Part shown: positions 12,481-34,198 of the stretch, one piece after another | Numbering within the stretch: the stretch's first letter is position 1 | Layout: the number at the start of each line of letters is the position of its first letter | Assembly (NCBI RefSeq): GCF_003852705.1 | Contig: NZ_REFA01000017.1 | Location: 1 to 50,162, forward strand | Direction of reading: 5' to 3' | From: Amniculibacterium aquaticum | Lineage (GTDB): Bacteria > Bacteroidota > Bacteroidia > Flavobacteriales > Weeksellaceae | DNA length: 50,162 nucleotides | The notes under the pieces: generated by a model | Databases searched by the model: none | What the model saw: the letters and a program-made list of their open reading frames with translations, nothing else | What the model was told of the DNA's origin: nothing | Program-made: the position numbers and the translations under genes

Positions 12481-13110
12481 TTATAAATTTTTGAGTATTT
12501 GGCTAAATTCAAACAAAATCATGGAGGTGGCACCCCAGATGTGGTATCCCTGGTACTCAATTACCGGTACTTCGACTCCTCTGGATGATGGAAGTGCTTT
12601 AAGCTCTGGACTGGAACTGAGTTTTACAAGGTCCGAAACTCGAAACTCAATAAGCTCTACAGCCTCGCTCTCTTGCAATTTGAATTTTGGATTTTTTTTG
12701 GTAAATGAAATAAAGGGATGTACAAAAAAATTACTTGGTGGTATGTACATGGGACTCATCTCACGGATGATTTTTACATAATGCTTGTCGATGCCAATTT
12801 CTTCAGAAGTTTCTCGGATGGCAGTTTCTGCAAAGTTGAGGTCTTCTGGATCACGACTGCCACCTGGAAAGGAAACTTGTCCACTGTGTTTGTCGTGTGC
12901 GTTTATCGTTCTTTGCATCAGAGGGAAGTACCATTCGTTATCTTTTAGGTACAAAAGAATGTTAACCGCAGCAAATCTAGGGTTCTTCTCTAAAATTTCT
13001 TCGTAACTGTACAAGGGTCTGTACGGTGGCGAGTAGATTTTATGAGCATTTTCGCCCAAGAGATCGGCGTTTTTAATTTTTTCGATTAAATCTTTCCCAA
13101 TGCTTTTCAT
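12481..13110 (-). CDS. Nudix hydrolase, CoA pyrophosphatase (NudL/UPF0035) type
   Basis: A 209-residue Nudix enzyme. The UPF0035 signature typical of coenzyme A pyrophosphatases is present (MQRTINAHDKHSGQVSFPGG, residues 65-84). The Nudix box follows, with the extended spacing of that subgroup and the metal-binding core RETSEEIG at 99-106. The expected activity is hydrolysis of CoA or its derivatives to phosphopantetheine and 3',5'-ADP; substrate preference is family knowledge only. The -7 box TATATTTG ends just 4 nt before the ATG, predicting a leaderless message. plsC follows 28 nt downstream on the same strand. Confidence 0.85.
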   Translation of the reverse strand: MKSIGKDLIEKIKNADLLGENAHKIYSPPYRPLYSYEEILEKNPRFAAVNILLYLKDNEWYFPLMQRTINAHDKHSGQVSFPGGSRDPEDLNFAETAIRETSEEIGIDKHYVKIIREMSPMYIPPSNFFVHPFISFTKKNPKFKLQESEAVELIEFRVSDLVKLSSSPELKALPSSRGVEVPVIEYQGYHIWGATSMILFEFSQILKNL

Positions 13111-13114
13111 AGTT

Positions 13115-13122
13115 CAAATATA
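13115..13122 (-). promoter_or_regulatory. -7 box of the Nudix gene, 4 nt from the ATG
   Basis: TATATTTG on the minus strand, then four bases (AACT) and the start codon at 13110. No clear -33 TTG is seen at the usual spacing. The position predicts transcription starting at or very near the ATG. Confidence 0.45.
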
Positions 13123-13210
13123 GTTCAAAATAAGGAATAATTGCATAGGTATTCTTCAATTTTGTATGCAGACTCGGTCTTTGGATTTTGAATATTTCAT
13201 GGAATATGAT

Positions 13211-13241
13211 AAAAAAAAGACTGTCGATTTGGACAGTCTTT
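13211..13241 (-). terminator. Terminator of the RNase G operon
   Basis: Perfect 10-bp stem AAAGACTGTC / GACAGTCTTT (13216-13225 with 13232-13241), 6-nt loop, with a U-run on the minus-strand transcript. Confidence 0.75.
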
Positions 13242-13264
13242 ATTTAGATAAATTTTTGGGATTT

Positions 13265-14818
13265 TTAGTTAGAATCTCCCATCAATTCTTCTTTATTGGC
13301 ATTGTAAATTTTATATTCCAAGTATTTAAAACTATCTCTCGGAATGATGGTCACCCATTTTTTGTATTTAAAAAACCATTTCATCTGTATGCTGTTCAGC
13401 CCTTTGGTTAGGTAGGCTTCAACAAAAGGATGTACATGGAGGAAAAGTTTTCCTTTTTCACTTTGCATGAGGTTGCGGATGGTTTCACCCATTCTTTCGA
13501 TCACCACTATTGGTGCTAGGATTTCTCCATCGGCATTTGGGTTTTCTTCTTTGGTTTCAATGTATTTTTCTGGTCTTACCCTTTGTCTGGTCATTTGTAT
13601 CAGACCAAATTTACTTGGGGGCAGGATTTTATGTTTCGCCTTGTCACGATTCATTTCATTTTTAAAATGTTCGTGCAATTCTCTTCGGTGATCCGGATTG
13701 ACCATGTCAATAAAATCCACCACGATAATACCTCCCATATCTCTCAGTCGTAGTTGTCTTGCTATTTCTGTAGCCGCCATTTTGTTCACATTCAGTGCAT
13801 GGTCTTTGTTGGTGGCAGAGTTGATGTTGGGGCCGGAGTTTACATCCACTACATGTAGGGCTTCTGTATGTTCTATCACCAGATAGGCACCTTTAGAGCT
13901 TGGGATGTTTACATGTTTACCAAAGCTTTGTTTCAGTTGTTTCTCGACATTGTAATATTCTAACAATGGGATGTGAGAGTCGTAAAACTGAACAATATTT
14001 TTTCTTTCAGGAGCGATAAGTTCTATGTAATTGCGCATGTCGCTTGACAATTGCTCGTCGTCGCAAATAATGCTTACAAATTCTGCATTAAAGTTATCTC
14101 TAAGTATGGCCGATGCTTTATCCTCTTCGCTTAAAACTTTGGAGGGTACTTTATTTTTTTGAATATTTTTAAAAGTAGTTTCCCATTTTTCGATTAGGGA
14201 ATTCATGTCGTTGTGCAGTTCAGCTACTTTTTTTCCTTCGGCTACGGTTCTGATAATTACGCCAAAGCCTTCGGGTTTGATACTTTCGATCAGGGTACGA
14301 AGTCTATCTTTTTCTTCTGTACTTCTTATTTTTTTTGAAATTGAAACTTTATTGTCGAAAGGGATTAGGACAAGAAAACGACCTGTAAGTGATATTTGGG
14401 TAGAGATTCTTGGTCCTTTGGTGGATATGGGTTCTTTTGTAATTTGCAACAAAACCACATCGTCTTTTGCAATTACTTTGTCCACCGTGCCGTGTTTGTC
14501 AATTTCTTTTTGAGTTTCAAAATTTTTCAGACCGGCAGTCTGCTGTTTTTTGTGGAAAGTATCTTTAATGAATTTTTGATAACTTAAAAAATCTGGACCT
14601 AAGTCCTGATAGTGTAAAAATGCATCTTTTTCGTAACCAATATTTACAAAAGCTGCATTAAGGTTGGGTGCCAATTTTTTTACTTTGCCTAAAAACAAAT
14701 CGCCTACCACAAACTCGTTTTGGTCTTCTTCCTCGTGCAATTCAAAGAGGCGGCCATCTTCGAGTAGGGCAATTTTTGTGCGATCATCTTCATGAGAAAT
14801 AATCAATTCTTTCTTCAT
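13265..14818 (-). CDS. rng: Ribonuclease E/G family endoribonuclease (RNase G)
   Basis: A 517-residue single-strand endoribonuclease involved in rRNA 5'-end maturation and mRNA decay. Residues 36-120 form the S1 domain (GDLFLGKVKKL, LNAAFVNIGYEKDAFLHY). The RNase H-like catalytic part carries the metal-binding aspartates in VVDVNSGPN and GGIIVVDFIDM. The 5'-sensor elements are in the same region. The CxxC zinc-link that dimerises Escherichia coli RNase E/G is absent: after MTRQRVRP the sequence reads EENPNADGEILAP, with no cysteine. There is no long C-terminal scaffold, so it is RNase G-sized. It follows hup and a 29-residue basic peptide gene on the same strand, and ends at a strong terminator. 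Confidence 0.92.
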   Translation of the reverse strand: MKKELIISHEDDRTKIALLEDGRLFELHEEEDQNEFVVGDLFLGKVKKLAPNLNAAFVNIGYEKDAFLHYQDLGPDFLSYQKFIKDTFHKKQQTAGLKNFETQKEIDKHGTVDKVIAKDDVVLLQITKEPISTKGPRISTQISLTGRFLVLIPFDNKVSISKKIRSTEEKDRLRTLIESIKPEGFGVIIRTVAEGKKVAELHNDMNSLIEKWETTFKNIQKNKVPSKVLSEEDKASAILRDNFNAEFVSIICDDEQLSSDMRNYIELIAPERKNIVQFYDSHIPLLEYYNVEKQLKQSFGKHVNIPSSKGAYLVIEHTEALHVVDVNSGPNINSATNKDHALNVNKMAATEIARQLRLRDMGGIIVVDFIDMVNPDHRRELHEHFKNEMNRDKAKHKILPPSKFGLIQMTRQRVRPEKYIETKEENPNADGEILAPIVVIERMGETIRNLMQSEKGKLFLHVHPFVEAYLTKGLNSIQMKWFFKYKKWVTIIPRDSFKYLEYKIYNANKEELMGDSN

Positions 14819-14992
14819 TGCTCTTGTTTGTTAGGCTTTTCCTGGTTTGGTAGGAAAAGTAGTTGTTTAGATTTAGTTCTATTAGGATACTCAATTGTAA
14901 TTTATTTTTTAATAATTGAGTAAAAACAAAAATATAGTTAATGAAAGTTTTTAAAATTTTCATCAACTATATTTTATATGGGTTTAGAAAAA

Positions 14993-15082
14993 TTATTTTT
15001 TCTTATGTCTGTTAGCTCTTCTTCTTTTCTTTCTCTTGTGAGTCGCTACCTTGTGTCTTTTTCTTTTTTTACCGCTTGGCAT
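14993..15082 (-). CDS. 29-residue very basic peptide, probable ribosome-associated protein
   Basis: A very short ORF from an ATG at 15082. The peptide starts MPSGKKRKRHKVATHKRKK and ends ANRHKKK; 20 of 29 residues are Lys, Arg or His. The coding frame is clean and sits between hup and rng on the same strand, 35 nt after the hup stop. Small basic peptides of this kind next to rng/hup recur in Flavobacteriia as I remember them. The composition is that of an rRNA-binding ribosomal peptide (compare bTHX, or the small extra protein described from the Flavobacterium ribosome), but the exact identity is not established here. Confidence 0.7.
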   Translation of the reverse strand: MPSGKKRKRHKVATHKRKKRRRANRHKKK

Positions 15083-15117
15083 AATCTTATAGTTTTAAAA
15101 AGTTAATATTCAGTGAA

Positions 15118-15408
15118 TTATTTTACTTGTACTTTTGTTTTTACTTTTTCTACAAAAGTCTTTGATGGTTTGAAAGCCGGAATGTTGTGCGCCGGAATTT
15201 CGATTGCAGTATTTTTTGAAATATTTCTTCCCGTTTTTGCTGCTCTGGTCTTGATGATGAATGACCCAAAACCTCTAAGATAAACATTGTCTCCGCTGTA
15301 CATAGATGTTCTTATCTCTTGCATGAAAGCTTCGATAACTTTCTGAGTCTCATTCTTTTCTGTTCCCAATTTATTAGAGATAATATTTACCAATTCTGCC
15401 TTTGTCAT
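15118..15408 (-). CDS. hup: HU family DNA-binding protein
   Basis: A 96-residue nucleoid protein of the HU/IHF family that bends DNA as a dimer. It begins MTKAELVNIISNKLG. The flanking DNA-binding beta arm is recognised by LRGFGSFIIKTRAAKTGRN and IPAHNIPAFKPSKTF, the standard signature. The length is 90-100 residues, as in the family. A promoter with a TATATTTG -7 box lies in the 47-bp gap to the divergent mutY. The 29-residue peptide gene and rng follow on the same strand. Confidence 0.93.
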   Translation of the reverse strand: MTKAELVNIISNKLGTEKNETQKVIEAFMQEIRTSMYSGDNVYLRGFGSFIIKTRAAKTGRNISKNTAIEIPAHNIPAFKPSKTFVEKVKTKVQVK

Positions 15409-15437
15409 TTCCTTTATTTATTTATAATTTTGGTGTG

Positions 15438-15469
15438 CAAATATAAAACTAATTTTTGAAAACTAACAA
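15438..15469 (-). promoter_or_regulatory. Putative hup promoter
   Basis: -7 box TATATTTG at 15445-15438 on the minus strand and TTG at 15469-15467, 21 nt apart. The -33 element lies inside the first codons of divergent mutY. Confidence 0.5.
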
Positions 15470-16517
15470 ACAAAACCCTGATTTTCCACACCTTGGTAAA
15501 AAATTATTGAAATGGTACGATTTTCATGGCCGTGACCTGCCATTTCGAAATACTCAAACTCCTTATAATATATGGATCAGTGAAATTATTTTTCAACAAA
15601 CCCGTATAGATCAAGGTCTGTCGTATTATACTAAATTTATTCATCGATTCCCAACGATTTCGGATTTGGCAGTGGCTCCACAAGATGAAGTCTTATTGTA
15701 TTGGAAGGGTTTAGGCTATTATTCCAGAGCTCTTAATTTGCATAAAACAGCTAAAATTATTCATGGCGATAGAAATGGGATTTTCCCTACGGCTTATCAA
15801 GATCTTTTAAAGTTGCCCGGAATTGGCAAGTACACGGCAGCGGCCATAGTAAGCATTTGTTACGGCGTTGCAATGCCAGCAGTCGATGGTAATTTTTATC
15901 GAGTTTTTAGTCGTTTGTTTGCTGATGATTTTGATGTGTCGAACGCTTCTGCTTTTCAATATTATTCAGATTTGGCCTTGAGGGTGATGCCTAAGACAAA
16001 TCCTGGAGAATTTAACCAAGCGATTATGGATCTAGGATCTTCGGTGTGCAAACCCAAAAATCCAGATTGCGATAAATGCCCTTTTGTGGACGATTGCTTG
16101 GCTTTTCAGCTGGGAAAAGTACAAGAGTTTCCTTACAAATCCAAAAAACAAAAAGTTTCAGAACAATCGATGGACTATTATTTTATCACCTTTCAAGATC
16201 GGTTTTTTATACAACAACGAGACGATCTTGGGATTTGGAAAAAACTTTTTGAGCTCCCACAGACATTGCCCGATCGACTTTCAGAATGCATCGTTTCTAC
16301 ATCAACCGTAGAACATAAACTCTCTCATCGGAAATTGAAAATTAATTTCCACCATGTGGTTGTAGAAGATGAAAAGGATTTTATTTCCATCGCGAAGTCC
16401 AACTCAAATATTTGTATAAATCCTTTGCAGTTGCAACGCTACGCATTTCCCAACCCCATCGATAATTATTTAAAAACAAGGGCGTTTTCTTCTTCAATTC
16501 CATTAAATTCTTTGTGA
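15456..16517 (+). CDS. mutY: A/G-specific adenine DNA glycosylase MutY
   Basis: A 353-residue base-excision glycosylase that removes adenine opposite 8-oxoguanine. Visible features: the N-terminal GRDLPFR, catalytic Glu43 in SEIIFQQTR, the helix-hairpin-helix LPGIGKYTAAAI, catalytic Asp144 in AVDGNFYRV, and the iron-sulfur loop with Cys198, Cys205, Cys208 and Cys214 (spacing 6, 2, 5). A NUDIX-like C-terminal domain recognising 8-oxoG starts near residue 235. No ATG is available: a stop codon lies two codons upstream, and the first usable codon is TTG at 15456, giving MKTNKQNPDFP. It is divergent from hup by 47 bp. gldD follows 41 nt downstream. Confidence 0.92.
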   Translation: MKTNKQNPDFPHLGKKLLKWYDFHGRDLPFRNTQTPYNIWISEIIFQQTRIDQGLSYYTKFIHRFPTISDLAVAPQDEVLLYWKGLGYYSRALNLHKTAKIIHGDRNGIFPTAYQDLLKLPGIGKYTAAAIVSICYGVAMPAVDGNFYRVFSRLFADDFDVSNASAFQYYSDLALRVMPKTNPGEFNQAIMDLGSSVCKPKNPDCDKCPFVDDCLAFQLGKVQEFPYKSKKQKVSEQSMDYYFITFQDRFFIQQRDDLGIWKKLFELPQTLPDRLSECIVSTSTVEHKLSHRKLKINFHHVVVEDEKDFISIAKSNSNICINPLQLQRYAFPNPIDNYLKTRAFSSSIPLNSL

Positions 16518-16546
16518 AGAATATGAGCAACTTCCGATTAAAAATG

Positions 16547-16554
16547 TATTTTTG
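16547..16554 (+). promoter_or_regulatory. -7 box of gldD, 4 nt from the ATG
   Basis: TATTTTTG followed by CCGA and the ATG at 16559. No convincing -33 TTG is seen. This supports the start at 16559 over upstream in-frame codons and predicts a leaderless message. Confidence 0.4.
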
Positions 16555-16558
16555 CCGA

Positions 16559-17110
16559 ATGCTTAAAAAAATAGTCTTTGTTTTATTAGGAAGTCTTCTG
16601 TTTTCATGTTCAGAAGACGCACATCCAAAACCGTATGGAGAGCTTCGTTTGGAATATCCAAAGGCTCAATACCAAAAGTTTGATGCCTGTTCTTATGATT
16701 TTGAATATTCGAATTTTGCAAAAATCACGGATGCCAAAAAACCATGTTGGTATTACATCGATTACCCGGAAATGAAGGCAAAGGTATTTATTACCTATTT
16801 CCCAATAAAAAATGATTTCGTTCAGCATGTCAAAGAATCCGAGAAAATGGTTTACGAACACACCATTAAGGCAAGTTCTATCGATACGAAATCGTTCAAC
16901 TATCCCGATAGAAAAGTTTACGGAAATTTCTACGAACTCAAAGGGCAAAGTGCTTCAAACATTCAGTTTTACATTACCGATAGCACCAAGCATTATGTTA
17001 CAGGAAACTTATACTTCAACACAAGACCCAAGCCGGACTCTTTAGCTCCTGCTGTTGGATACATCAAACAAGATCTATTAAGATTAATCGATACATTTCA
17101 TTGGAAATAA
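16559..17110 (+). CDS. gldD: Gliding motility lipoprotein GldD
   Basis: A 183-residue lipoprotein (signal peptide with lipobox LLFSC, Cys17) matching GldD. It shows the PKPYGELRLEYPKAQY segment after the signal and the C-terminal LYFNTRPKPDSLAPA with YIKQDLLRLIDTFHW. GldD is one of the Gld proteins needed for gliding and for the type IX secretion machinery in Flavobacterium, and is anchored in the cell envelope. The frame is open upstream to 16514, but the -7 box at 16547-16554 and the signal peptide argue for the ATG at 16559. In Flavobacterium johnsoniae mutY, ssb and gldE precede gldD; here mutY is the direct neighbour, with neither ssb nor gldE between. Confidence 0.9.
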   Translation: MLKKIVFVLLGSLLFSCSEDAHPKPYGELRLEYPKAQYQKFDACSYDFEYSNFAKITDAKKPCWYYIDYPEMKAKVFITYFPIKNDFVQHVKESEKMVYEHTIKASSIDTKSFNYPDRKVYGNFYELKGQSASNIQFYITDSTKHYVTGNLYFNTRPKPDSLAPAVGYIKQDLLRLIDTFHWK

Positions 17111-17138
17111 TTTTAACATTAAAAAATACTTAGAAAAT

Positions 17139-18059
17139 ATGAAACTTATTGCAGTAGGGACGGTTGCTTTTGACGCCATTGAAACCCCTTTCGGAAAAAC
17201 AGATAAAATATTAGGTGGAGCTGCAACTTACATCGGTCTTGCCGCTGCCGCTATGAAAACTCCAGTTCATTTGGTGTCCGTAATCGGTGGAGATTTTCCA
17301 CAAGATTATCTGGATATGATGACCGGAAAAGGCATCAACCTGGACGGTGTAGAAATGGTGAAAGAAGGAAAAACCTTTTTCTGGAGCGGAAAGTACCACA
17401 ACGATCTCAATACTCGAGATACTTTGGCTACTGAGCTGAATGTTTTGGAAAATTTCGATCCTAAAATTCCGGAATCGGCTCAAGATGCAGAAGTTCTATT
17501 GATGGGGAATCTTCATCCTGCTGTACAACTTTCGGTATTAGAAAAAATGAACAACAGACCAAAATTGGTGGTCTTGGATACCATGAATTTTTGGATGGAT
17601 CATACTTGGGATCTTTTGATGGAAGTTATTGCCAAAACCGATGTCATTACCATCAACGACGAAGAAGCAAGACAGCTTTCCGGAGAATATTCTTTGGTGA
17701 AAGCCGCTAAAAAAATTCACGAATTGGGACCTAAATATGTGATCATCAAAAAAGGAGAACACGGTGCTTTGCTTTTCCATGAAGGGAGAATTTTTGCCAT
17801 TCCGGCATTGCCATTAGAAGAGGTTTTCGATCCAACAGGTGCAGGAGATACTTTTGCCGGAGGTTTTGTTTCCTACCTTGCGAAAAAAGGAGATTTTTCC
17901 TTTGAAAATATGAAAGCAGCCATTATCGCAGGTTCTGCAATGGCATCGTTTACGGTAGAGAAATTTGGAACCGAAAGGTTAGAAGAAATTACAGAAACCG
18001 ATATCTTAAATCGCGTGAACGACTTCAAAGAACTTACCACTTTTGATGTGGTTATCTAA
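17139..18059 (+). CDS. PfkB family carbohydrate/nucleoside kinase
   Basis: A 306-residue ribokinase-type kinase. The N-terminal glycine motif LGGAATYIGLAAA and the C-terminal PfkB signature DPTGAGDTFAGG (Asp231 to Asp237, the last being the catalytic base) are both complete. Residues KKGEHGALLF form the usual segment before the ATP site. The substrate (sugar, sugar phosphate or nucleoside) cannot be assigned; related flavobacterial proteins are annotated only as PfkB family or sugar kinase. It lies 28 nt after gldD on the same strand and may be cotranscribed. Confidence 0.88.
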   Translation: MKLIAVGTVAFDAIETPFGKTDKILGGAATYIGLAAAAMKTPVHLVSVIGGDFPQDYLDMMTGKGINLDGVEMVKEGKTFFWSGKYHNDLNTRDTLATELNVLENFDPKIPESAQDAEVLLMGNLHPAVQLSVLEKMNNRPKLVVLDTMNFWMDHTWDLLMEVIAKTDVITINDEEARQLSGEYSLVKAAKKIHELGPKYVIIKKGEHGALLFHEGRIFAIPALPLEEVFDPTGAGDTFAGGFVSYLAKKGDFSFENMKAAIIAGSAMASFTVEKFGTERLEEITETDILNRVNDFKELTTFDVVI

Positions 18060-18096
18060 TAAAATATCAATTTTAAGAAATAATTATCATTAATTT

Positions 18097-18129
18097 TTGG
18101 ACGCTATTGTCCATAGAATTATATATTTG
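18097..18129 (+). promoter_or_regulatory. Putative promoter of the peptidylprolyl isomerase gene
   Basis: -7 box TATATTTG at 18122-18129, TTG at 18097-18099, 22-nt spacer. The start codon is 21 nt after the box. Confidence 0.5.
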
Positions 18130-18150
18130 CAATTCTATTAAAAATTAAAT

Positions 18151-19512
18151 ATGACGAAAAAAATAAATTTAACCTTAATATTAGGATTTTTTATGCTCCT
18201 TTTTACGGTTAAAATGAATGCGCAATTGAAACCAGGTGAAATGGTGGACGGGATAGCGGCTGTAATTGGTAACGAAATTGTGTTGGAGTCCGATGTACAG
18301 GAGCAAATGAACTATGCCAAACAGCAAGGTGAGAAAATTACCGACAAATGCCAATTTATGGAGAGAATTCTTAGCCAGAAACTCTTGATCAACGAAGCCA
18401 AAAAAGATACTTTGATTGAGAAAAGAGATGCTGCAATCCGTGAAAGAGCAAACGAAAAGTACAACCAAATGCTGATGTCTTTCCCGGACGAAAAAACCAT
18501 GCTGGATGCCTATAAATTCCGTACCGGTTTCGAAATGAAAAATGCCATCGAAAAAATAGATATTGATAGCTATTACGGTCAGTCAAAATACCAAAGAATC
18601 ACCGAAAAAGTAGATGTAACACCCAACGAAGTTACCAATTTCTATACCACCAATCAGTACCAACTTCCTGAGGTAAAAGACGAAGTAACTTTGGCTAAAA
18701 TCTCTATGTTTCCTGTGCTTACCGAAGCCCATAAACAAGAAATTATCGATCGTTTGAAGAAAATAAAACAAGATATTTTGGGAGGCGAATCTTTTGACAG
18801 CCAAGCCAGAATTTATTCTGAAGACGAAGGAAGTGCTGCAAACGGTGGTCTGTACAAAAACATATCGAAAGGACAAATGGTAAAACCTTTTGAAGCAGCA
18901 GCTCTTAACTTGCAAGAAGGTGAAATTTCTGATCCCATCGAATCCGAATTCGGGTTTCATATCATTCAATTGATCAAAAAAGCAGGTAAAAAATACGATG
19001 CCAAGCACATCTTGATTAAATCGACTCCAAACGACGAAGAGATGGCGAATGCTAAGAAAGAATTGGAAAAAATAAAGCAAAGCATTTTGGACGGTAAAAT
19101 GACTTTTAAAGAAGCTGCATTCAAATATTCCGACGATAAAAAAACAAAATTTAACGGCGGAGTTATGGCCGATGAAAACGGTGATAAGATTGAAAAATTA
19201 AACCTTCCTCCAACTCTAGGTTACCACATTGCCGGACTTAATAAAGGCGATATGACGGATGTTTTTGAAGAAGATGTCAACAAAAGAAAAGCCGTAGCTT
19301 TGGTAAAAGTAGAAGAGGTAATCCCGGCGCATAAACTTACTTTAGAATCCGACTATGACCGTGTAAAACAAATGGCACTGAACCATAAGAAAAACGGAAT
19401 CGTAGAAAAATGGGTGAACGGCGAATTGCCAAATGTATTCATCTCCATCGATAAAAGATATAAAGATTGTAACTTCAAAACCGACTGGAATAAGCAATCT
19501 CTTTCTAAATAA
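18151..19512 (+). CDS. SurA-like periplasmic peptidylprolyl isomerase
   Basis: A 453-residue periplasmic chaperone with a signal peptide (residues 1-24, ending MNAQ). Residues 30-165 match the SurA N-terminal domain (VDGIAAVIGNEIVLESDVQEQ), the part that binds unfolded outer-membrane proteins. Two parvulin (PpiC) domains follow at about 175-275 (SEDEGSAANGGLYKNISKGQ) and 285-390 (KHILIKSTPND, FKYSDDKKTKFNGG). The expected role is folding of beta-barrel proteins before insertion by Bam. It is a single-gene unit with its own promoter and terminator. Confidence 0.9.
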   Translation: MTKKINLTLILGFFMLLFTVKMNAQLKPGEMVDGIAAVIGNEIVLESDVQEQMNYAKQQGEKITDKCQFMERILSQKLLINEAKKDTLIEKRDAAIRERANEKYNQMLMSFPDEKTMLDAYKFRTGFEMKNAIEKIDIDSYYGQSKYQRITEKVDVTPNEVTNFYTTNQYQLPEVKDEVTLAKISMFPVLTEAHKQEIIDRLKKIKQDILGGESFDSQARIYSEDEGSAANGGLYKNISKGQMVKPFEAAALNLQEGEISDPIESEFGFHIIQLIKKAGKKYDAKHILIKSTPNDEEMANAKKELEKIKQSILDGKMTFKEAAFKYSDDKKTKFNGGVMADENGDKIEKLNLPPTLGYHIAGLNKGDMTDVFEEDVNKRKAVALVKVEEVIPAHKLTLESDYDRVKQMALNHKKNGIVEKWVNGELPNVFISIDKRYKDCNFKTDWNKQSLSK

Positions 19513-19523
19513 AACAAATTTAT

Positions 19524-19550
19524 CCTCAATTTTTATTGAGGGTTTTTTTT
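19524..19550 (+). terminator. Intrinsic terminator after the isomerase gene
   Basis: 7-bp stem CCTCAAT / ATTGAGG with a TTTT loop followed by eight T. Confidence 0.75.
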
Positions 19551-19625
19551 GTTCAAATCGAAATTTGTATTTTTACCAACATGAGTAGTTTTATAGACTT
19601 TGGTTTGGCCAAAAAACAAATAGAT

Positions 19626-20570: not shown

Positions 20571-20587
20571 GAAATAATGTCAAAAGA

Positions 20588-20619: not shown

Positions 20620-20622
20620 ATT

Positions 20623-23773: not shown

Positions 23774-23801
23774 AAAACCACAGAAATTCTGTGGTTTTTT
23801 T
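23774..23801 (+). terminator. Intrinsic terminator after lpdA
   Basis: 10-bp stem AAAACCACAG / CTGTGGTTTT (23774-23783 with 23789-23798), followed by T-run. It abuts the -7 box of the next gene. Confidence 0.75.
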
Positions 23802-23803: not shown

Positions 23804-23811
23804 TATATTTG
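23804..23811 (+). promoter_or_regulatory. -7 box of the patatin gene, 4 nt from the ATG
   Basis: TATATTTG then ATAC and the ATG at 23816. The position where a -33 element would lie is occupied by the lpdA terminator stem. Predicts a leaderless message. Confidence 0.45.
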
Positions 23812-23815: not shown

Positions 23816-24604
23816 ATGGAAAATATCGAAACAATAGGATTGGTACTTTCCGGTGGTGGAACAAAAGGTGTGGCTCACGCCGGAGTACTTAAGTTTTTGA
23901 ACGAAAAAGACATTGCTGTTGACCGTATTGCATGCTGCAGTGCGGGTTCTATCGTTGCTGCTTTGTATTCAGTGGGCAAAAGTCCTGAGGAAATTCTTCA
24001 CTTTTTTCAGTCCATTTATCTGTTTAGTTGGAAACACCTGACCATTAGTAAATCCGGTTTTTTGTCCAGCACTACTTTCAGAGAACATCTAGAACCCATA
24101 TTGGGAGATTTGAAAATTGGTGATTTGGAGGTGGATTTAAAAATTGTTGCAACCGAAATGGTTAGCGGCAGTCAAGTGGTTTTTGATAAGGAGTTTAACT
24201 TGATTGACGCTGTAAGTGCATCGTGCTCTATCCCGGGGATTTCTGTACCTTTTATCAAAGACGATAAAGTCTATTGTGACGGCGGCGTACTTAATAATTT
24301 TCCGGCAGACATTATTCGGTTTGATTGCGATAAAATTATTGGAGTTTTTCTCTCTCCACCTCAAAGTGTTCAGCCTAAAGATTTGGATTCTATAAAATCG
24401 GTAATATCAAGGTCGTATGACTTAATATCGTATCGAACCGAGCAATATAAATTTGCCTACTGCGATTGGTTCATCACTTCTCAAGATTTGGCTCAATTTG
24501 GTACCTTTGAGAAAAAAGCTTCTCGATTGCAAGAAATATACGACTTGGGTTATCAGTCGGCTCAGGAAACCTATTCTTGGGGCGATGAGGAAATTGCAAT
24601 TTAA
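23816..24604 (+). CDS. Patatin-like phospholipase family protein
   Basis: A 262-residue cytosolic patatin-fold lipase/esterase using a Ser-Asp dyad. The oxyanion-hole glycines are in LSGGGTKGVAHAGVL (residues 11-25), the nucleophile Ser42 in ACCSAGSIVAAL, and the catalytic Asp155 in YCDGGVLNNFP. The nucleophile elbow is normally GxSxG; here the first glycine is Cys40 (C-C-S-A-G), a rare substitution. The substrate is unknown. The stop overlaps the stop of the convergent oxidoreductase gene by 3 nt. Confidence 0.88.
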   Translation: MENIETIGLVLSGGGTKGVAHAGVLKFLNEKDIAVDRIACCSAGSIVAALYSVGKSPEEILHFFQSIYLFSWKHLTISKSGFLSSTTFREHLEPILGDLKIGDLEVDLKIVATEMVSGSQVVFDKEFNLIDAVSASCSIPGISVPFIKDDKVYCDGGVLNNFPADIIRFDCDKIIGVFLSPPQSVQPKDLDSIKSVISRSYDLISYRTEQYKFAYCDWFITSQDLAQFGTFEKKASRLQEIYDLGYQSAQETYSWGDEEIAI

Positions 24605-25658: not shown

Positions 25659-25662
25659 GTTT

Positions 25663-26595: not shown

Positions 26596-26670
26596 TGTAG
26601 CTTGAGGCTTTTTTTTGAAGTTGCAAAAATAGGGTATTTCGATGACTTTTAGGGTTTAAAATCCATAAAA

Positions 26671-26702
26671 AAATCCTTATCAAAATTTGATGATAAGGAT
26701 TT
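26671..26702 (-). terminator. Terminator of the M1 aminopeptidase gene
   Basis: Perfect 12-bp stem AAATCCTTATCA / TGATAAGGATTT (26671-26682 with 26691-26702), 8-nt loop, with a U-run on the minus-strand transcript. Confidence 0.75.
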
Positions 26703-26741
26703 TAAAACCATTCGCCAATAGCTTTGGCAAATAAGTACGAC

Positions 26742-29237
26742 TTATTTGTAAGCTTCTATCGCTTTGTTAATGGCATCAATTTGTTGGTTGATGGTCGGAC
26801 TGTTGGGGTTGGCTTTCAAAACCGTCATTTTTTTAGCCAAACCGTCTTTTAACATTTGCGATAGCATCATTTTTACCTGAGGGTTATCCGGCATTTGGGA
26901 TTTTGCCATTATCAAAAGCTTGGTGATGCTTTCAGTAGCTTTTATATTGTCGGAGGACATGATCCAGTTAAAGCCTTCTTCAGCAGTTTTTCCTAATTCG
27001 ATATCTTGAAATTTCAAGAACGGATAAAAGGCAACCACCTGTCCAATGGCAGGCATTTGCTTTTCAATTTTGTTTTTAACAATTAGGGGTAAAAGATTGG
27101 TCAATTCCTCTTCATTGGAGCCTTCAAGGTCGATGTTGGACAGTATTTCTTTTATTTTATCCGAATTCAAACTAGCCAAACCACTAAGTGATGCACTTTT
27201 TACAGCATTGGAAACGGCGGTTGATCCTTTCTCGTAAATGCCTAAATATTTTGGATTTTTTGTTTTGACCAAAGATGAAATTGCAGCAGCTTGTACCAAA
27301 GTTTTTGCATCGTTGGTGGCTAATTTTTCCACTTCGGCAATGGTGTTTTTTGAAGCATTTTGTGTGAGATCCAAACCGTTCAATGCCTTAATTTTTGTTC
27401 TGAAAAAAGGATCTTTCAAAGCTGCCGTTAGTAGCTTTATAGAGGCTTCGTCTTTGCTTGTGTTTTCAGCCACCTTCTTAACCGCTTGGTATCGTCCGTA
27501 AAAATCTTTGGTACCTAAATATTGACTGAGATATTGTGCATTTGTTTTGTCGTCATTGATGTCGGCAACTAAGATCCCGTCGGGGTTTAGATTGATGAGC
27601 TCCGGAGTTTTGGTGTTGGAAAAGTTAAACGAATTTTTTTGTTTGGCATCTACCCAAATTTTTTGTCTTTGGGCTTTTCCATCAACAAAAACATCTACGG
27701 TTAGTGGGAATTCAAAATACTGATCTTGGTTTTGGGTAATGGTCAGTGTGGTTTCTTTTTTTACAGGTTCAAAGGTGTAACTGTACGAGATTTTAGGATT
27801 TCCACTGCCAAAATACCATTGGTTGAAAAACCAGTTGAGATCTTTTCCTGAAACTTTTTCGAACGACAGCCTCAACTGATGCGCTTCTGCATTTTGATAT
27901 TCGTTGGTTTTCAAGAAGTCAGTAATGCCCGCGAAAAAAGCATCGTCGCCCAAGTAATTTCTAAGCATGTGCAAGATTCCGCCTCCTTTTTGGTAGGTCA
28001 CCAAATCGAAAACATCTTCACGAGATTCGTAATCGAATCGTACCAAATCTTTTTTGAAATCTCGTGGATTGTGCAGGTACATTCCAACATCGCTCATCAA
28101 ATGATAATCGGCGGCATCTTTTCCGTATTTGTATTCGTTCCACAAATATTCGGAGTAGTTGGCGAAAGATTCATTTACAGTCAGGTTGCTCCAGCTTTCA
28201 GCGGTAACCAAATCTCCAAACCAATGATGGAATAACTCGTGGGCGATGGTGTTTTCCCATTTGTTTTCATCGATTAATTGACCCGGTTTTTGCTGTGCCG
28301 AAGATCCGTGCAGGGTGCAGGTCGTGTTTTCCATAGCACCAGAAATGTAGTCTTGACCGGTTATTTGAGCGTATTTTTGCCAAGGATAATCATAATTTAA
28401 TTTTTTAGAGAAAAATTCCATCATTTCCGGAGTATTTCCGAAAATTTGTTGTGCATACGGTTCGTATTCTTTTTCTACATAATAATCTACAGCGATATTT
28501 CTCCATTTGTCCTTAATCACGGCATAGTCGCCAACACCCATGAAAAATAAGTACGGAGAATGCTTTTTGTCCATCACCCAATGGTCGGTTCTCAATCCGC
28601 CAGATTCTTTCTTTTGCTCTTTAAGGATCCCGTTGGAAAGGGTGATGTATTTGTCAGGAACCGTCATGTAAATTTCCTGAGTGGTTTTTTGGTTGGTTTT
28701 GTCAATGGTAGGGAACCATGCCGAAGACGATTCGGTCTCTCCTTGGGTCCAGATTTGTGTTGCTTTGTTTGAATCTTTTCCTTGAGCGTTGATAAAGTAC
28801 AAACCTTTGGCATCGTTGATGGCTGCAGACCCTTTTTGTTTTACCTCATTGGGTCTTGCCGTGTATTTGATATAGACGGTATAGTCTTGATTTTTCTGAT
28901 AGGTTTTATCCAGATTTATTTTAAGGATATCGTTTTTATAATCGTATTTCAATGGTTTTTTATCCAAAGAAATTTCATGGATCAACATGCCTTTGGCATT
29001 CAGTACCAAAGAGTCTGTAGGGTAGAAGTAGGGACTCGCTGTCAACCATTCTTCCCCATTAACTTGTTCTTTTTGATAATCGAAGCTGACCTTTAGTTTG
29101 GTGTGTTTTAACTCGGTCATTTTGTTGTGAGTAGCTCTGTAAATGGGAGTTCTGCCAGAGGTAGCCGTTTGAGCTTGGATAAGATTGAATGGCAATACAG
29201 CTGCTAGAAGTACTGCGGATACGATTATTTTCTTCAT
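26742..29237 (-). CDS. pepN: M1 family zinc metallopeptidase (aminopeptidase N-like)
   Basis: An 831-residue secreted zinc aminopeptidase. Signal peptide 1-22 (ending IQAQ). The substrate-binding motif SGAMENTT (GAMEN) and the zinc site HELFHHWFGDLVTAESWSNL (His333, Glu334, His337), followed by the third ligand in VNESFANY, are all intact. C-terminal helical-repeat domain from about residue 560. Expected to trim N-terminal residues from peptides in the periplasm for nutrition. Divergent from glk. The 278 bp upstream have no gene; only a -7 box for glk is visible there. Confidence 0.92.
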   Translation of the reverse strand: MKKIIVSAVLLAAVLPFNLIQAQTATSGRTPIYRATHNKMTELKHTKLKVSFDYQKEQVNGEEWLTASPYFYPTDSLVLNAKGMLIHEISLDKKPLKYDYKNDILKINLDKTYQKNQDYTVYIKYTARPNEVKQKGSAAINDAKGLYFINAQGKDSNKATQIWTQGETESSSAWFPTIDKTNQKTTQEIYMTVPDKYITLSNGILKEQKKESGGLRTDHWVMDKKHSPYLFFMGVGDYAVIKDKWRNIAVDYYVEKEYEPYAQQIFGNTPEMMEFFSKKLNYDYPWQKYAQITGQDYISGAMENTTCTLHGSSAQQKPGQLIDENKWENTIAHELFHHWFGDLVTAESWSNLTVNESFANYSEYLWNEYKYGKDAADYHLMSDVGMYLHNPRDFKKDLVRFDYESREDVFDLVTYQKGGGILHMLRNYLGDDAFFAGITDFLKTNEYQNAEAHQLRLSFEKVSGKDLNWFFNQWYFGSGNPKISYSYTFEPVKKETTLTITQNQDQYFEFPLTVDVFVDGKAQRQKIWVDAKQKNSFNFSNTKTPELINLNPDGILVADINDDKTNAQYLSQYLGTKDFYGRYQAVKKVAENTSKDEASIKLLTAALKDPFFRTKIKALNGLDLTQNASKNTIAEVEKLATNDAKTLVQAAAISSLVKTKNPKYLGIYEKGSTAVSNAVKSASLSGLASLNSDKIKEILSNIDLEGSNEEELTNLLPLIVKNKIEKQMPAIGQVVAFYPFLKFQDIELGKTAEEGFNWIMSSDNIKATESITKLLIMAKSQMPDNPQVKMMLSQMLKDGLAKKMTVLKANPNSPTINQQIDAINKAIEAYK

Positions 29238-29515
29238 TTTTAGTTGTTAATTTTTTGACCTAATCTTGAATTTTCATTCCATTGAAGTTTCTAAAGGTCA
29301 ATTGGTCCTTGTTTCTTTTGATTTTTTTTGCAATTCAACAAAGTTAATGTTTTTTGGAACAGATGTAAAAGTTGAATTTTGAAATTTATTGAATTAAACG
29401 GTTTTTGTTGTGAATTTTAACAAAATTTAAGATTGTTATGTAAATAATTCAAAATAATGAAAAAATATTTTAAATTATTGAATTCTATTATTATCTTTGA
29501 TGAAAACCATTTGTC

Positions 29516-30568
29516 ATGATTGCCAACTCCAAATTCAAATTGTACCTGCCAGGACTGAAGAAAAGACAGGATAATGACAGTACCATTCTTGTGGCTGACT
29601 TAGGCGAAGAAACCAGTATTCTAGGACTTTTTATGGTCAAAGACGGTTGCGTCTATTTGCAAAAAGAAGAAATTGTAGATACCCATAATTTTTCGGATTT
29701 CGAAGATATGATTGGGTATTTTATTAGAAACCATCAGTTGGAAAATATCACAAGAATTGTGGCCTCTTTGCCGGGTTTTGTTTTGCACGGAAAGTCCAAC
29801 CCCAAACGATTGCATTGGGAATTGGATGCCTACGATTTGAAAGAAAAATTGGGTGTAGAAAGGGTGTGTCTCATCAACGATTTAGAAGCTGCTGCTTATG
29901 GTTTGGCCGGCGTATCGGATCCGCAATTGGTAACCGTCTTTCAGCCAGAAAATACCATTCCAAAAGGGAATATGGCGGTTATAGCTCCTGGAAATGGACT
30001 GGGTGAAGCCGGACTTTTTTATGATGGAAAATACCTTCGCCCCTTTGCTACAGAAGGTGGGCACTGCGAATTTTCGCCAAGAACCAATGTCGAAGTCGAA
30101 TTTTATCAGTTTCTCAATCATATTTACGGAATTGTCACCTGGGAACATGTGCTTTCAAAACACGGATTGTACAACATCTACCGCTTTCTGAGGGATGTCA
30201 AAAGGCATCCAGAACCGGAATGGTTAAACGATTACCTTTGTCAGGGCGATTTTAGTCAACAATTGTATTCCGCAGCAGTAGAAGAGAAAGTGTCAATTTG
30301 CCAAGTTACCATAGAAACTTATTTGGAATTTTTGGCCAGAGAAGCCAACAGTTTGGCACTGAAATTGAAAGCTACAGGAGGTTTGGTATTGGCAGGTGAA
30401 CTGCCTATATTATTGAAAAAGCACATCAGTTGGCAAAGTTTTTATGATAAATTTAAAATTAGTGATAAAATGGAAAATTTATTAAAAGAAATTCCGATAC
30501 ATATCGTAACCAATCATAAAATTTCACTTTACGGTGCAGCCTATTTTGCTGCTTTTTCTGAAGATTAA
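29516..30568 (+). CDS. glk: Glucokinase
   Basis: A 350-residue sugar kinase of the Glk (ROK-independent, group B) type, phosphorylating glucose to glucose 6-phosphate (EC 2.7.1.2). Landmarks: VADLGEETSILGL (phosphate 1), VASLPGFVLHG, catalytic aspartate in LINDLEAAAYGLAG, APGNGLGEAGLF, and EGGHCEFSPR for sugar recognition. ATP-site glycines near LKATGGLVLAGE. A -7 box TATCTTTG lies at 29492-29499, 16 nt before the ATG. YceI genes follow on the same strand 23 nt downstream. Confidence 0.85.
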   Translation: MIANSKFKLYLPGLKKRQDNDSTILVADLGEETSILGLFMVKDGCVYLQKEEIVDTHNFSDFEDMIGYFIRNHQLENITRIVASLPGFVLHGKSNPKRLHWELDAYDLKEKLGVERVCLINDLEAAAYGLAGVSDPQLVTVFQPENTIPKGNMAVIAPGNGLGEAGLFYDGKYLRPFATEGGHCEFSPRTNVEVEFYQFLNHIYGIVTWEHVLSKHGLYNIYRFLRDVKRHPEPEWLNDYLCQGDFSQQLYSAAVEEKVSICQVTIETYLEFLAREANSLALKLKATGGLVLAGELPILLKKHISWQSFYDKFKISDKMENLLKEIPIHIVTNHKISLYGAAYFAAFSED

Positions 30569-30591
30569 TCAGAAAAAAAAGTTTAAATCTC

Positions 30592-31176
30592 ATGCATTCA
30601 TTTAAAAATTTAACAGCAGCACTTTTGCTGATCTCCGGTTTGGCTTTTGGACAGGCGAACAAGAAAATTCAAAACTCAACCATCACTTGGAAAGCATACA
30701 AAGCCCTAAATGCTGATGCCATGTCGCATTGGGGGACTGTAAAACTAAAAGCTGGAAATATCGTAACCAACAGCAATAACGAAATTGTAGGCGGTAATTT
30801 CATCATCGATCTGTCCACCATTTTGGCCGATGATATGAAAGGAAATAAAAAAATGAAACTCATGCTGGAAAATCATCTGAAAAGCGACGATTTTTTTGAT
30901 GTGAAGAATTTTCCAACCGCTTTTTTCAAATTAACTACAGTAAAGCCCAATAACGATAAAAAATACAACTACATTTTTTCCGGAAATCTAACCATCCGAA
31001 ATGTGTCCAAACCCATTTCTTTTCCTGTTTTTGTTAGTAATGATGGAAATAAAACTACCGTTCAATCGGCATTATTTACTTTCAATAGAAAAGATTATGA
31101 CCTGAATTACAACATCTTCGAAGATATGATTCTGAAAAATGAAGTGGAGATGACGGTGAAATTCATGGCCAAGTAA
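30592..31176 (+). CDS. YceI family periplasmic lipid-binding protein (copy 1)
   Basis: A 194-residue secreted lipocalin-like protein. Signal peptide 1-20 (GLAFGQ). The core shows WKAYKALNADAMSHWGTVKL and the typical KSDDFFDVKNFPTAFFK, with a C-terminal NRKDYDLNYNIFED and VEMTVKF. YceI proteins bind polyisoprenoids or amphiphiles in the periplasm; the ligand here is unknown. It is 23 nt after glk and about 76 nt before a second YceI gene with its own promoter. Confidence 0.88.
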   Translation: MHSFKNLTAALLLISGLAFGQANKKIQNSTITWKAYKALNADAMSHWGTVKLKAGNIVTNSNNEIVGGNFIIDLSTILADDMKGNKKMKLMLENHLKSDDFFDVKNFPTAFFKLTTVKPNNDKKYNYIFSGNLTIRNVSKPISFPVFVSNDGNKTTVQSALFTFNRKDYDLNYNIFEDMILKNEVEMTVKFMAK

Positions 31177-31198
31177 TAAAACATCTCAAAAAAACTTG

Positions 31199-31227
31199 TG
31201 CTTTTTCATTTTCTTTTTATATTTTTG
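31199..31227 (+). promoter_or_regulatory. Putative promoter of the second YceI gene
   Basis: -7 box TATTTTTG at 31220-31227 with a TTG just upstream at 31196-31198 (21-nt spacer); start codon 25 nt after the box. Confidence 0.45.
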
Positions 31228-31252
31228 GTCAATGTTTAAATAATTTTTAAGA

Positions 31253-31858
31253 ATGAAAAAATTTTCTCTTTTAGTTTTCATGTTTGTTGGGTTTTTCTTC
31301 GCAACATCACAAATGAAAACCGTTCAGTTGGTAGGCGAAAAATCCTCTAAAGTAATCAGTTCATCCGTTAATTGGTGGGGCTACAAAATCATCAGAAGCG
31401 AACCTTTTAGCCACAACGGACAATTAAAATTGAAAAATGGTAAGTTCAACTTCAAAGACGGAAAACTGATCGATGCCGATTTTATCATCGATATGCGTTC
31501 ATTAACCATTGACAATGCCGCAGGTGCCGACAAGGAAAAATGGACCAAAGATCTAAAAAGCTCTAACTTTTTCGATGTTAAAAAATATCCATTAGCACTT
31601 TTCCACATTTCCAAAGTGTTGCCAAACGATAAAAACGACGGTTTCAACTCTCTTGTCATTGGCGAAGTAACCATAAAAGGCAAAAGAAAAACCATTTCTT
31701 TCCCTGCAAATGTCAACATCAACGGGTATTCTGTAAGCATGGAAACGGCAAAAATTACCATCAACAGGCACGAGTTCAATGTCTTCTACAAACCGGGAAT
31801 CAAAGACTATGTCATCAAAGACGAAATGGATATCCAGGTTAAATTAGCCACCAAATAA
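31253..31858 (+). CDS. YceI family periplasmic lipid-binding protein (copy 2)
   Basis: A 201-residue secreted paralog of the upstream gene. Signal peptide 1-19 (FFFATSQ). Core: SSVNWWGYKIIRSEPFSHNG, LKSSNFFDVKKYPLALFH, and TINRHEFNVFYKPGIKDYVIKDE, the last being the usual YceI C-terminal pattern. Identity to copy 1 is moderate, so this is an old duplication. It may bind a different lipid. It ends at a terminator. Confidence 0.88.
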   Translation: MKKFSLLVFMFVGFFFATSQMKTVQLVGEKSSKVISSSVNWWGYKIIRSEPFSHNGQLKLKNGKFNFKDGKLIDADFIIDMRSLTIDNAAGADKEKWTKDLKSSNFFDVKKYPLALFHISKVLPNDKNDGFNSLVIGEVTIKGKRKTISFPANVNINGYSVSMETAKITINRHEFNVFYKPGIKDYVIKDEMDIQVKLATK

Positions 31859-31870
31859 TTTATATAACTC

Positions 31871-31902
31871 AAGAGCAGCTGTTTGGTTGCTCTTTTTTTT
31901 TC
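31871..31902 (+). terminator. Intrinsic terminator after the YceI pair
   Basis: Stem AAGAGCA / TGCTCTT (31871-31877 with 31888-31894) followed by a long T-run. Confidence 0.65.
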
Positions 31903-31912
31903 AAAAAAAATT

Positions 31913-32554
31913 ATGAAACTTTATACGATCAGCGGTTTGGGAGCCGATTACAAAGTCCTAGAAAAATTGCAATTTCCATCAAGATATGAAGTGGTTTTTC
32001 TGGACTGGCTGATCCCTGAAAAAAAAGAAGATTTCCACAGCTATGTCAACAGAATGGCTGCGAAAATCGATACTTCCAAGCCTTTTGTACTTTTGGGATA
32101 TTCTTTTGGCGGGATTGTGGTACAGGAAATTAACCAAATTTTTCCAGCCGAAAAAGTCATCATCTTGGGTTCTATAAAATCGGATTTGGAGAAGTCAAAA
32201 TTCATTAATTTAGGTAAGATAACCAAAATTCCTAAGTTGCTGCCCGAACGATTTTTCAACGAAAAAAACATCACAGCATATTCTTTTTTACGCAAACTCT
32301 TCGACTCCAAAAACCCTAAAGTTTTAGACTATTTTACAGTCCGAAATGCCTATTACCTCAAATGGTCCATCGAAAAAATTGCAGAATGGAAACACCAATC
32401 CAATGCCGAAATTATTCAGATATTGGGTGACAAAGACATCGTTTTCCCCATCAAAAATTCCAAACCCGACTTTGTCATTAAAGGCGGTACCCATCTTTTC
32501 CCGCTCACCAAAGCCAAAGAGGTTTCCGAAATTTTACAACAAATTTTGGATTAG
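31913..32554 (+). CDS. Alpha/beta hydrolase
   Basis: A 213-residue alpha/beta hydrolase without signal peptide. Nucleophile elbow LLGYSFGGIVVQ (Ser64), acid candidate in ILGDKDIVFP, and catalytic His in GGTHLFPL near the end. The start MKLYTISGLGADYKV at 31913 is taken as it is followed directly by the first strand of the fold and lies just after the upstream terminator; the frame is open to 31883. The substrate is unknown. It is followed by an intergenic element with a long hairpin. Confidence 0.82.
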   Translation: MKLYTISGLGADYKVLEKLQFPSRYEVVFLDWLIPEKKEDFHSYVNRMAAKIDTSKPFVLLGYSFGGIVVQEINQIFPAEKVIILGSIKSDLEKSKFINLGKITKIPKLLPERFFNEKNITAYSFLRKLFDSKNPKVLDYFTVRNAYYLKWSIEKIAEWKHQSNAEIIQILGDKDIVFPIKNSKPDFVIKGGTHLFPLTKAKEVSEILQQILD

Positions 32555-32580
32555 TAGCTTCACCATTTAAGATGCTTTCA

Positions 32581-32662
32581 ATCCCGGTCCGGCTGTACGC
32601 TGTATCTTTTGTGCCAAGGCTTTTCCCAAGGCATACAAAAGGATGCCGCTTCCATCCGGGCT
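32581..32662. repeat. 82-bp imperfect palindrome, REP-like intergenic element
   Basis: Two arms, 32581-32615 (ATCCCGG at the tip, CTTTTGTGCC at the base) and 32630-32662 (GGCATACAAAAGGAT, then ATCCGGGCT), pair imperfectly over about 33 bp with a 14-nt loop. The stretch is more GC-rich than its surroundings and encodes nothing. Elements of this look are dispersed in flavobacterial genomes; it may also end the hydrolase transcript. The rest of 32555-32767 shows no gene. Confidence 0.5.
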
Positions 32663-32767
32663 AGAAGATCAGGAAAAGATTTTTAGCTATGAAGCAGCAG
32701 TTTTTGGGATAGCAAAAATATCACAGGTTCTTATTGTTTTTATAACGAAAATGAAAGACTTTTTCGC

Positions 32768-32775
32768 TATTTTTG
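32768..32775 (+). promoter_or_regulatory. -7 box of sdaA, 4 nt from the ATG
   Basis: TATTTTTG, then TACT and the ATG at 32780. A TTG at 32734-32736 is too far for a normal -33. Predicts a leaderless message. Confidence 0.45.
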
Positions 32776-32779
32776 TACT

Positions 32780-34198
32780 ATGCAATCGATAAGTGTTTTT
32801 GAAATTATAAAAGTCGGCATCGGCCCATCCAGTTCGCATACCATGGGACCTTGGAATGCTGCACAACTTTTTTTAGAACTCATCCAGAGAACTCATAAAA
32901 TTGAAGATGTTAAGGAAGTTTTTGTAGAGTTTTTTGGCTCATTGGCAAAGACAGGCATCGGTCACGGTACCGATATTGCTGGGATGCTAGGACTTTCAGG
33001 TGAAAACTTCATCACCATAGATACCACAAAAATTGATGTAAAAGTCGAAGAAATAAAATCTTCACAAATCATGAATCTTGGCGGTGTCAAAAAAATACCC
33101 TTCATCTACGGACATCATTTAATTCTTAATAAATCCAAATCCCTAGATTTTCATCCCAACGGAATGATCTTCAAAGCCATTTTCGAAAACGGTGATGAAA
33201 TCTCTCAAGATTATTATTCCGTGGGTGGTGGTTTTGTAGCTACCAAAGAAGAAAATTCCATAGAAAGCAATTGTGTGCGTACTCTGTACCCTTGTCATCA
33301 TGGCGAAGATATCAAAAGAAATGTAGAAAAGTTAGGTCTGTCCAAAATTTCAGATCTTATATTTCTGAATGAAGAAAGTTGGAGAACTCGTGAAGAGACC
33401 GAGAATCAAGCATTGTACATCTGGAAACACATCAAAGAATGCATCTACAAAGGCGTGAACAAAGAAGGAATATTGCCGGGTGGATTGAAAGTGAAAAGAA
33501 GAGCTCCTGAGTTTAACCGTAGATTGTTGGGCGAAAAAATCTATAAAAACCTCGACGAATGGTACACCATGATTGCCGATACGGACAGAAGTTTTACTCA
33601 AATTTCGCGTTGGGTATCGTGTTTTGCTTTGGCGGTGAACGAAGAAAATGCAAGCTTTGGAAGGATCATTACTGCTCCTACCAACGGTGCTAGTGGAGTT
33701 ATCCCTGCGGTATTGATGTATTCTCAACTTTTTACAGAAGGTAAAGGCGATGATAATATTATCCGCTTTCTTTTAGTTGCAGGTGAGATTGGTACTCTTT
33801 TCAAGAAAAATGCAACCATTTCCGCAGCAATGGGCGGTTGCCAAGCAGAAATAGGTGTTTCTTCGGCAATGGCTGCAGCGGGGTTAACCGAAATTTTGGG
33901 CGGAACTCCAGGTCAGGTCTTGATGGCTGCAGAAATCGCTATGGAACACCATTTGGGACTCACTTGTGACCCGATCGGAGGTTTGGTACAAATCCCGTGT
34001 ATAGAAAGAAATTCCATGGGAGCCATAAAAGCCATTACAGCAGCACAAATTGCTCTAGACAGCGATCCGGAAAGTGCAAAGGTAAGTTTAGACGCCGTGA
34101 TACAATCCATGTGGGATACGGCACAATCCATGAGCGAACGCTTCAAAGAAACCTCCGAAGGTGGCTTGGCCATTTCGGTAAATGTACCGGAATGTTAG
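32780..34198 (+). CDS. sdaA: L-serine ammonia-lyase (iron-sulfur, single chain)
   Basis: A 472-residue single-chain L-serine dehydratase converting serine to pyruvate and ammonia (EC 4.3.1.17). N-terminal beta domain with [10 protein letters not shown] (residues 15-24). C-terminal catalytic domain with [12 protein letters not shown] and the 4Fe-4S cysteines in [22 protein letters not shown] and further IERNS. The spacing Cys-x10-Cys matches the known iron-sulfur serine dehydratases. Length agrees with the type II family (about 455-475). It is a single gene. Confidence 0.93.

Follow-up and report, generated by a model that had tools for sequence, protein, structure and literature searches.

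Four genes of Amniculibacterium aquaticum with a -7 box exactly 4 nt before the ATG: predicted leaderless mRNAs

The window, that is, the whole stretch of 50,162 nt of Amniculibacterium aquaticum DNA that was analysed, contains four genes in which a -7 promoter box is followed by exactly 4 nt and the ATG (Table 1): a Nudix hydrolase gene, the gliding-motility gene gldD, a gene for a patatin-like phospholipase and sdaA. GldD and the L-serine ammonia-lyase score over the curated cut-offs of their NCBIfam families, and the names of the Nudix and patatin proteins come from families whose cut-offs they stay under. The arrangement TAnnTTTG, four bases and ATG had been pointed out at these genes in the first-pass annotation, and direct reading together with a script confirmed it at all four sites. 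Each of the four boxes has the form of the TAHHTTTG -7 element, as have 27 of the 27 gap-4 boxes found at chosen starts in the genome sample described below (gap being the number of nucleotides between the box and the ATG).

Table 1. Positions in the window of the four gap-4 boxes, their genes and the terminator-like hairpins
Feature	Position	Strand	Details
Nudix -7 promoter box, TATATTTG	13122-13115	-	then AACT and ATG 13110; gap 4 nt; read directly and located by script
Nudix hydrolase (CoA pyrophosphatase-like) gene, predicted leaderless	12481..13110	-	NF007980, E 2.8e-22, 79.3 bits, under curated cut-off of 134
Hairpin resembling an intrinsic terminator, upstream of the Nudix promoter and on its strand	13216..13241	-	
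gldD -7 promoter box, TATTTTTG	16547..16554	+	then CCGA and ATG 16559; gap 4 nt
gldD gliding-motility lipoprotein gene, predicted leaderless	16559..17110	+	TIGR03512, 230.8 bits, cut-off 120
Terminator-like hairpin, ending 5 nt ahead of the patatin -7 box	23774..23798	+	
Patatin -7 promoter box, TATATTTG	23804..23811	+	then ATAC and ATG 23816; gap 4 nt
Patatin-like phospholipase gene (RssA-like), predicted leaderless	23816..24604	+	NF007623, E 2e-22, under cut-off
sdaA -7 promoter box, TATTTTTG	32768..32775	+	then TACT and ATG 32780; gap 4 nt
sdaA L-serine ammonia-lyase gene, predicted leaderless	32780..34198	+	TIGR00720, 537.5 bits, cut-off 345.1

In the whole window there are six TANNTTTG-N4-ATG places, namely the four genes, 31220 and 42783. 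Neither of the last two is likely to be a gene start: at 31220 the box is followed by ATG TTT AAA TAA, and 42783 lies antisense within the ORF 41969-42937. In the region 31220-31253 the likely gene start is ATG 31253, and the encoded protein looks signal-peptide-like by eye; if transcription starts as predicted at the 31220 box, the mRNA would open with a 5′-terminal AUG mini-ORF of three codons. On the minus strand near 50022, 47593 and 44596, TATTTTTGaatccataagaaggttttttgt is surrounded by near-identical sequence in 3 copies, a repeated promoter-like or leader-like segment. A scan of sigma-70-type promoters gave 52 matches against 53.5 in shuffles, and is uninformative for this phylum.

The distance from box to ATG was then counted in 60 stretches (1.2 Mb), which together with the window come to 1.25 Mb, or 49% of the 2.55 Mb genome; 1,209 genes were called in this sample with a purpose-made Markov-model caller. 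Pairs were counted for each ATG leaving at least 75% of its frame or, alternatively, for one chosen start per gene. The distribution over the 1.25 Mb is bimodal, with 29 pairs at a gap of 4, 15 at 5, 38 over 6-13 and 280 over 14-33; when only the chosen start of each gene is used, the counts become 27, 10, 22 and 200. At the chosen ATG starts, gaps of 4-5 account for 37 of the 279 box pairs with gaps of 4-40, or about 13%. As a control, 29 words of the same letters gave a mean of 1.86 and a maximum of 6 at gap 4, compared with 29 for the real box, and a pattern count of the whole genome found 108 occurrences at gap 4 as against 48 for the reversed pattern. That is to say, the genome-wide peak at 4 for which the first-pass annotation had proposed to look exists, on half the genome, as a large excess over control words; because of this excess, the outcome that the same annotation had named as speaking against leaderless starts, no surplus of the 4-nt distance over chance, is not what was found.

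It might be argued that the spike at 4 is due to sequences favoured at start codons, be they translation signals or stretches rich in T, and not to promoters, given that start regions are AT-rich and that Kozak-like preferences in Bacteroidetes are described in passages of PMC6847099. However, words of the same letters never exceed 6 at gap 4, the same word makes a hump at 14-33, the range expected of leadered promoters, and the position of the spike coincides with the published distance from the box to the transcription start site, so that such a preference is regarded as a very improbable explanation. As to that distance, it has been reported in the relevant passages that the -7 box of F. 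psychrophilum lies at -12 to -5, i.e., 4 nt from the mapped start site (PMC9723704), and that many candidates in F. johnsoniae have 4 or 5 nt between the box and the start site predicted by RNA-seq (PMC6847099). The spike at 4 and the shoulder at 5 are the same two values as these Flavobacterium spacings. Since the published spacing is 4 or 4-5 nt, transcription would be expected to begin on the A of the ATG when the gap is 4; if the start lies 4 nt past the box, the leaders would fall into a group of 0-1 nt, a valley at 2-9 nt and a broad hump at about 10-29 nt.

The explanation proposed for the four genes is as follows. Each gene would have its own promoter, read by the housekeeping sigma factor of Bacteroidetes through the box TAHHTTTG, and the placement of this box would make RNA polymerase start at the A of the ATG. 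The messages would be without a leader, ribosomes would begin at the 5′-terminal AUG, and the four genes would belong to a genome-wide class that covers about 13% of the box-start pairs (37/279). Both the actual 5′ end and 5′-terminal initiation on these messages are what we infer from the position of the box.

Recognisable -33 elements had also been described as lacking at the four genes, and this stands as an observation: TTG is absent at the usual spacing (17-23 nt before the box) for all four boxes, and the TTGs within 45 nt before the box lie at 34 and 3 nt for Nudix, 32 for gldD, 1 for patatin and 31 for sdaA. As an argument it does not hold, because most leadered promoters lack TTTG too. 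At the usual -33 spacing, TTTG is present in 15.5% of the leadered promoters and in 7% of those with gap 4, and because it is rare also in the leadered promoters here, a missing -33 element is not distinctive. In F. johnsoniae the -33 element is likewise described, in passages of PMC6847099, as much less evident. For both reasons, its absence does not decide whether the four belong to the sigma-ABfr promoters.

The gap-4 starts of the sample comprise 29 ATG, 0 GTG and 0 TTG, GTG and TTG being few anyway (18 of 218 leadered chosen starts); GTG at gap 4 occurs in two loci of relatives (L232 and L285). There is no downstream A-rich signal in the 37 gap-4/5 genes, where the share of A at +4 to +18 is 0.476 as compared with 0.461 in leadered genes (P 0.40). 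The base just before the ATG is C or T in 19 of 27 gap-4 genes and in 85 of 199 cases at the matching place of leadered promoters, which is only suggestive of a pyrimidine preference at this place in the gap-4 genes. When 28 of the 29 gap-4 proteins were scanned (one, spanning two stretches, was omitted), 5 of the 28 exceeded the curated cut-offs of the translation-related families fmt, rbfA, truB, prfB and smpB, a raw count without a background set. These five genes sit on the genome stretches L109, L111, L112, L118 and L119.

Among the four genes, gldD has the most constant box. Its nearest named relatives, found with GldD, belong mostly to Chryseobacterium and Kaistella, and in the best 80 of 158 loci kept from these records the box stands at gap 4 in 79, the remaining locus having TATTTTTA in the same place. 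In whole genomes of the window's family, gldD was found in 54 of 60, and all of the 30 best loci that were read, the window's own included, have gap 4, one of them with a GTG start; these two samples overlap in species. Thinning these to less than 70% upstream identity left 22 loci, in which each of the six constant box letters, T, A, T, T, T and G, carried 2.0 bits, compared with an average of 0.39 bits across -60 to -13. In a second family of the order, with a relaxed box at gap 4 or 5 before any candidate ATG, no such box was seen in 30 gldD loci, a result that does not support gldD leaderlessness being ancient in the order.

A constant box could nevertheless be a minor one, with most of the message leadered by read-through from upstream promoters. 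gldD lies 41 nt downstream of the preceding ORF, so that it is likely to receive read-through transcription from upstream as well. For F. psychrophilum gldD, transcription from the mutY and ssb promoters has been proposed in silico (in the part of PMC5682007 concerned). For the four genes as a whole, however, read-through as the main source is judged unlikely: terminator-like hairpins lie ahead of patatin and Nudix, and the gldD box is fixed in 30/30 family loci while little else upstream is conserved. Since the hairpin ends so close ahead of the patatin box, the patatin message plausibly starts no more than about 17 nt from the ATG, and given the upstream hairpins on the same strand, both the patatin and the Nudix messages plausibly start at their boxes.

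The start codons themselves also have to be considered, since, with mis-assigned codons, the true starts would lie further downstream, in which case the leaders would be ordinary, or, in gldD, ahead of the box. The gene caller did pick GTG 16514, with which the mechanical gldD ORF begins, over ATG 16559, there are further in-frame ATGs at 16523 and 16544 (36 and 15 nt upstream), and the patatin protein aligns by tblastn from its first residue in no more than 7 of 30 relatives. Against this, the N-termini at these ATGs are conserved, tblastn alignments from residue 1 being obtained in 30/30 loci for sdaA, in 80/80 for GldD (best 80 of 158) and in 24/30 for Nudix; 25 of the 30 gldD family loci have no in-frame ATG upstream; a lipoprotein-like signal follows directly after ATG 16559; and the patatin protein has GGGTKG from residue 13, which leaves no room for a much later start. 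Mis-assignment is thus rated as very improbable, and the ATGs are probably the true protein starts, judged by conservation only, less firmly so for patatin (7/30) and for gldD with its in-frame upstream ATGs.

For each of the other genes, the family comparison likewise covered the 30 best loci, with the window's own genome counted among them. The Nudix gene has gap 4 in 17/30 loci, or in 21/30 with the relaxed TAHHTTTR box, and in the two other genomes of the window's genus it had no match. For patatin, gap 4 was found in 3/30 loci with the strict and 9/30 with the relaxed box, several of the 30 being distant paralogs. In the patatin loci L242, L244, L245, L233, L235 and L236, TAnnTTTG is replaced by TAnnTTTA at the same 4-nt distance, so the last letter of the box may be variable in patatin relatives; in L242, L244 and L245 the TAnnTTTA box comes directly after a sequence that looks by eye like a terminator hairpin. 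As for sdaA, the 4/30 loci with gap 4 comprise the three from the window's genus and a single further one; in the remainder of the 30 the nearest strict box lies at 7-30 nt, and 7 loci have none.

Whether the distance is kept can also be seen across a whole set of genes. For this, 40 stretches (0.8 Mb) of the genome of another genus in the family (G026) were set against the half of the window's genome that had been sampled, and 126 ortholog pairs passed the filters (identity of at least 45%, coverage of at least 70%, alignment near the N-terminus and ATG start). A gap of 4-5 is kept in 7 of 11 pairs, all 7 with the identical gap, while only 3 of the other 115 pairs have a gap of 4-5 in the other genome (odds ratio 65, Fisher P 4e-7). 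For the 14 pairs leadered in both genomes, the same gap was found in 2 and a gap within 1 nt in 7. The kept seven include rbfA, prfB, uvrC, an aroE-like gene and an LptF/G-like permease (the last two under cut-offs); sdaA is among the four that are not kept, with gap 7 in the other genus. In addition, rbfA, which encodes a 30S assembly factor, has gap 4 in 17, gap 5 in 5 and gaps of 7-8 in 8 of 30 family loci, and in the second family of the order it has gap 4 or 5 in 23/30 loci (relaxed box, any candidate ATG), so that a leaderless rbfA is predicted to be conserved across both families (loci L321-L350 and L381-L410). smpB was rejected as another conserved gap-4 case, with gap 4 in 1/30 loci, its own.

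At the level of the phylum, the pattern was counted at gap 4 and gap 10 in 247 genomes; these are whole-genome counts with much background, and not counts of gene starts. In the window's class, gap 4 is the more frequent of the two in 60 of 61 genomes (4,871 vs 2,545), and it outnumbers gap 1 in 59 of 61 (4,871 vs 2,743); outside the class, it exceeds gap 10 in 134 of 186 (4,548 vs 3,621). One family outside the class (f24, 9 genomes) has 215 occurrences at gap 4, compared with 38 for gap 10 and 36 for gap 1; its ratio of gap 4 to gap 10, 5.7, is above that of the other well-counted families, and it is perhaps a lineage rich in leaderless genes. In three large families outside the class, the ratio is only 1.09-1.23.

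In summary, the gap-4 excess, the kept distance and the published spacing support well the leaderless mRNAs that the first-pass annotation had predicted. It is thus highly likely, as far as box position and conservation can tell, that the four genes have their own housekeeping promoters, are transcribed from the A of the ATG and give leaderless messages. The leaderless case is strongest for gldD and Nudix; that of patatin rests on the terminator and that of sdaA on its genus. A wider reading is tentative and rather doubtful, namely that the Flavobacteriales may possess a conserved leaderless gene set whose promoters are held by selection at a distance of exactly 4 nt from the start codon, with leaders of about 2-9 nt as a partial barrier between the leaderless and the leadered state, and that, should the ordinary 30S route of initiation fail, some factors of the translation machinery may still be expressed by way of leaderless initiation. 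The last part is suggested by the presence of rbfA, prfB, fmt, truB and smpB in the class. The genes that support a conserved set are rbfA (both families), prfB, uvrC and the aroE-like gene (two genera) and gldD (every family locus read); that the barrier would be partial agrees with the 8 of 30 rbfA loci at gaps 7-8. How Bacteroidetes ribosomes choose their starts is still being worked out, and a box 4 nt before the ATG provides an easily read list of genes expected to use 5′-terminal initiation. Moreover, the box of a given gene can have another position in other lineages, so that cases of the gldD and rbfA type are natural test pairs: sdaA has the box at 4 nt here and at 7-30 nt in most other genera with a box, and gldD lacks such a box in the second family.

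As regards known systems, Shine-Dalgarno sequences are described as naturally absent from Bacteroidetes mRNA in passages of PMC6847099. The prediction of TA-led leaderless genes (PMC3160421, as far as its passages go) follows the same logic, in which a gene counts as leaderless if its start codon comes about 10-12 bp after a promoter box; the boxes used there were TANNNT, and Bacteroidetes had many "atypical" genes. In E. coli, leaderless genes are described as keeping up translation under kasugamycin, with a drop for leadered ones (PMC4929434). For B. thetaiotaomicron, the share of 5′ UTRs under 10 nt is about 3.7%, and these short-leader mRNAs share the sigma factor type and the box with the present genes, but the examples quoted in the passages of PMC7366714 differ, being transposases, sensor kinases and transporters. 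In Flavobacterium, the mRNAs of 890 CDSs of F. psychrophilum include 5.5% leaderless ones (PMC9723704), and in F. johnsoniae 87% of the transcripts with a probable promoter have leaders longer than 10 nt and 13% do not (PMC6847099), both according to the passages concerned. The -7 box is the same in these species and here; they belong, however, to a different family from that of the window, and their 5′ ends were mapped or predicted by RNA-seq, whereas here the box position is used. The passages on Flavobacterium leaderless mRNAs, supplements being outside their scope, give neither gene identities nor bimodality nor conservation across genera. Within the open-access listings searched and the passages of PMC9723704, PMC6847099, PMC7366714, PMC3160421, PMC5682007 and PMC9031893, no report of gene-by-gene conservation of the exact spacing was found, and this conservation appears to be new. 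Leaderless mRNAs as such have already been reported in Flavobacterium and Bacteroides, and the four genes described here would be new members of that class.
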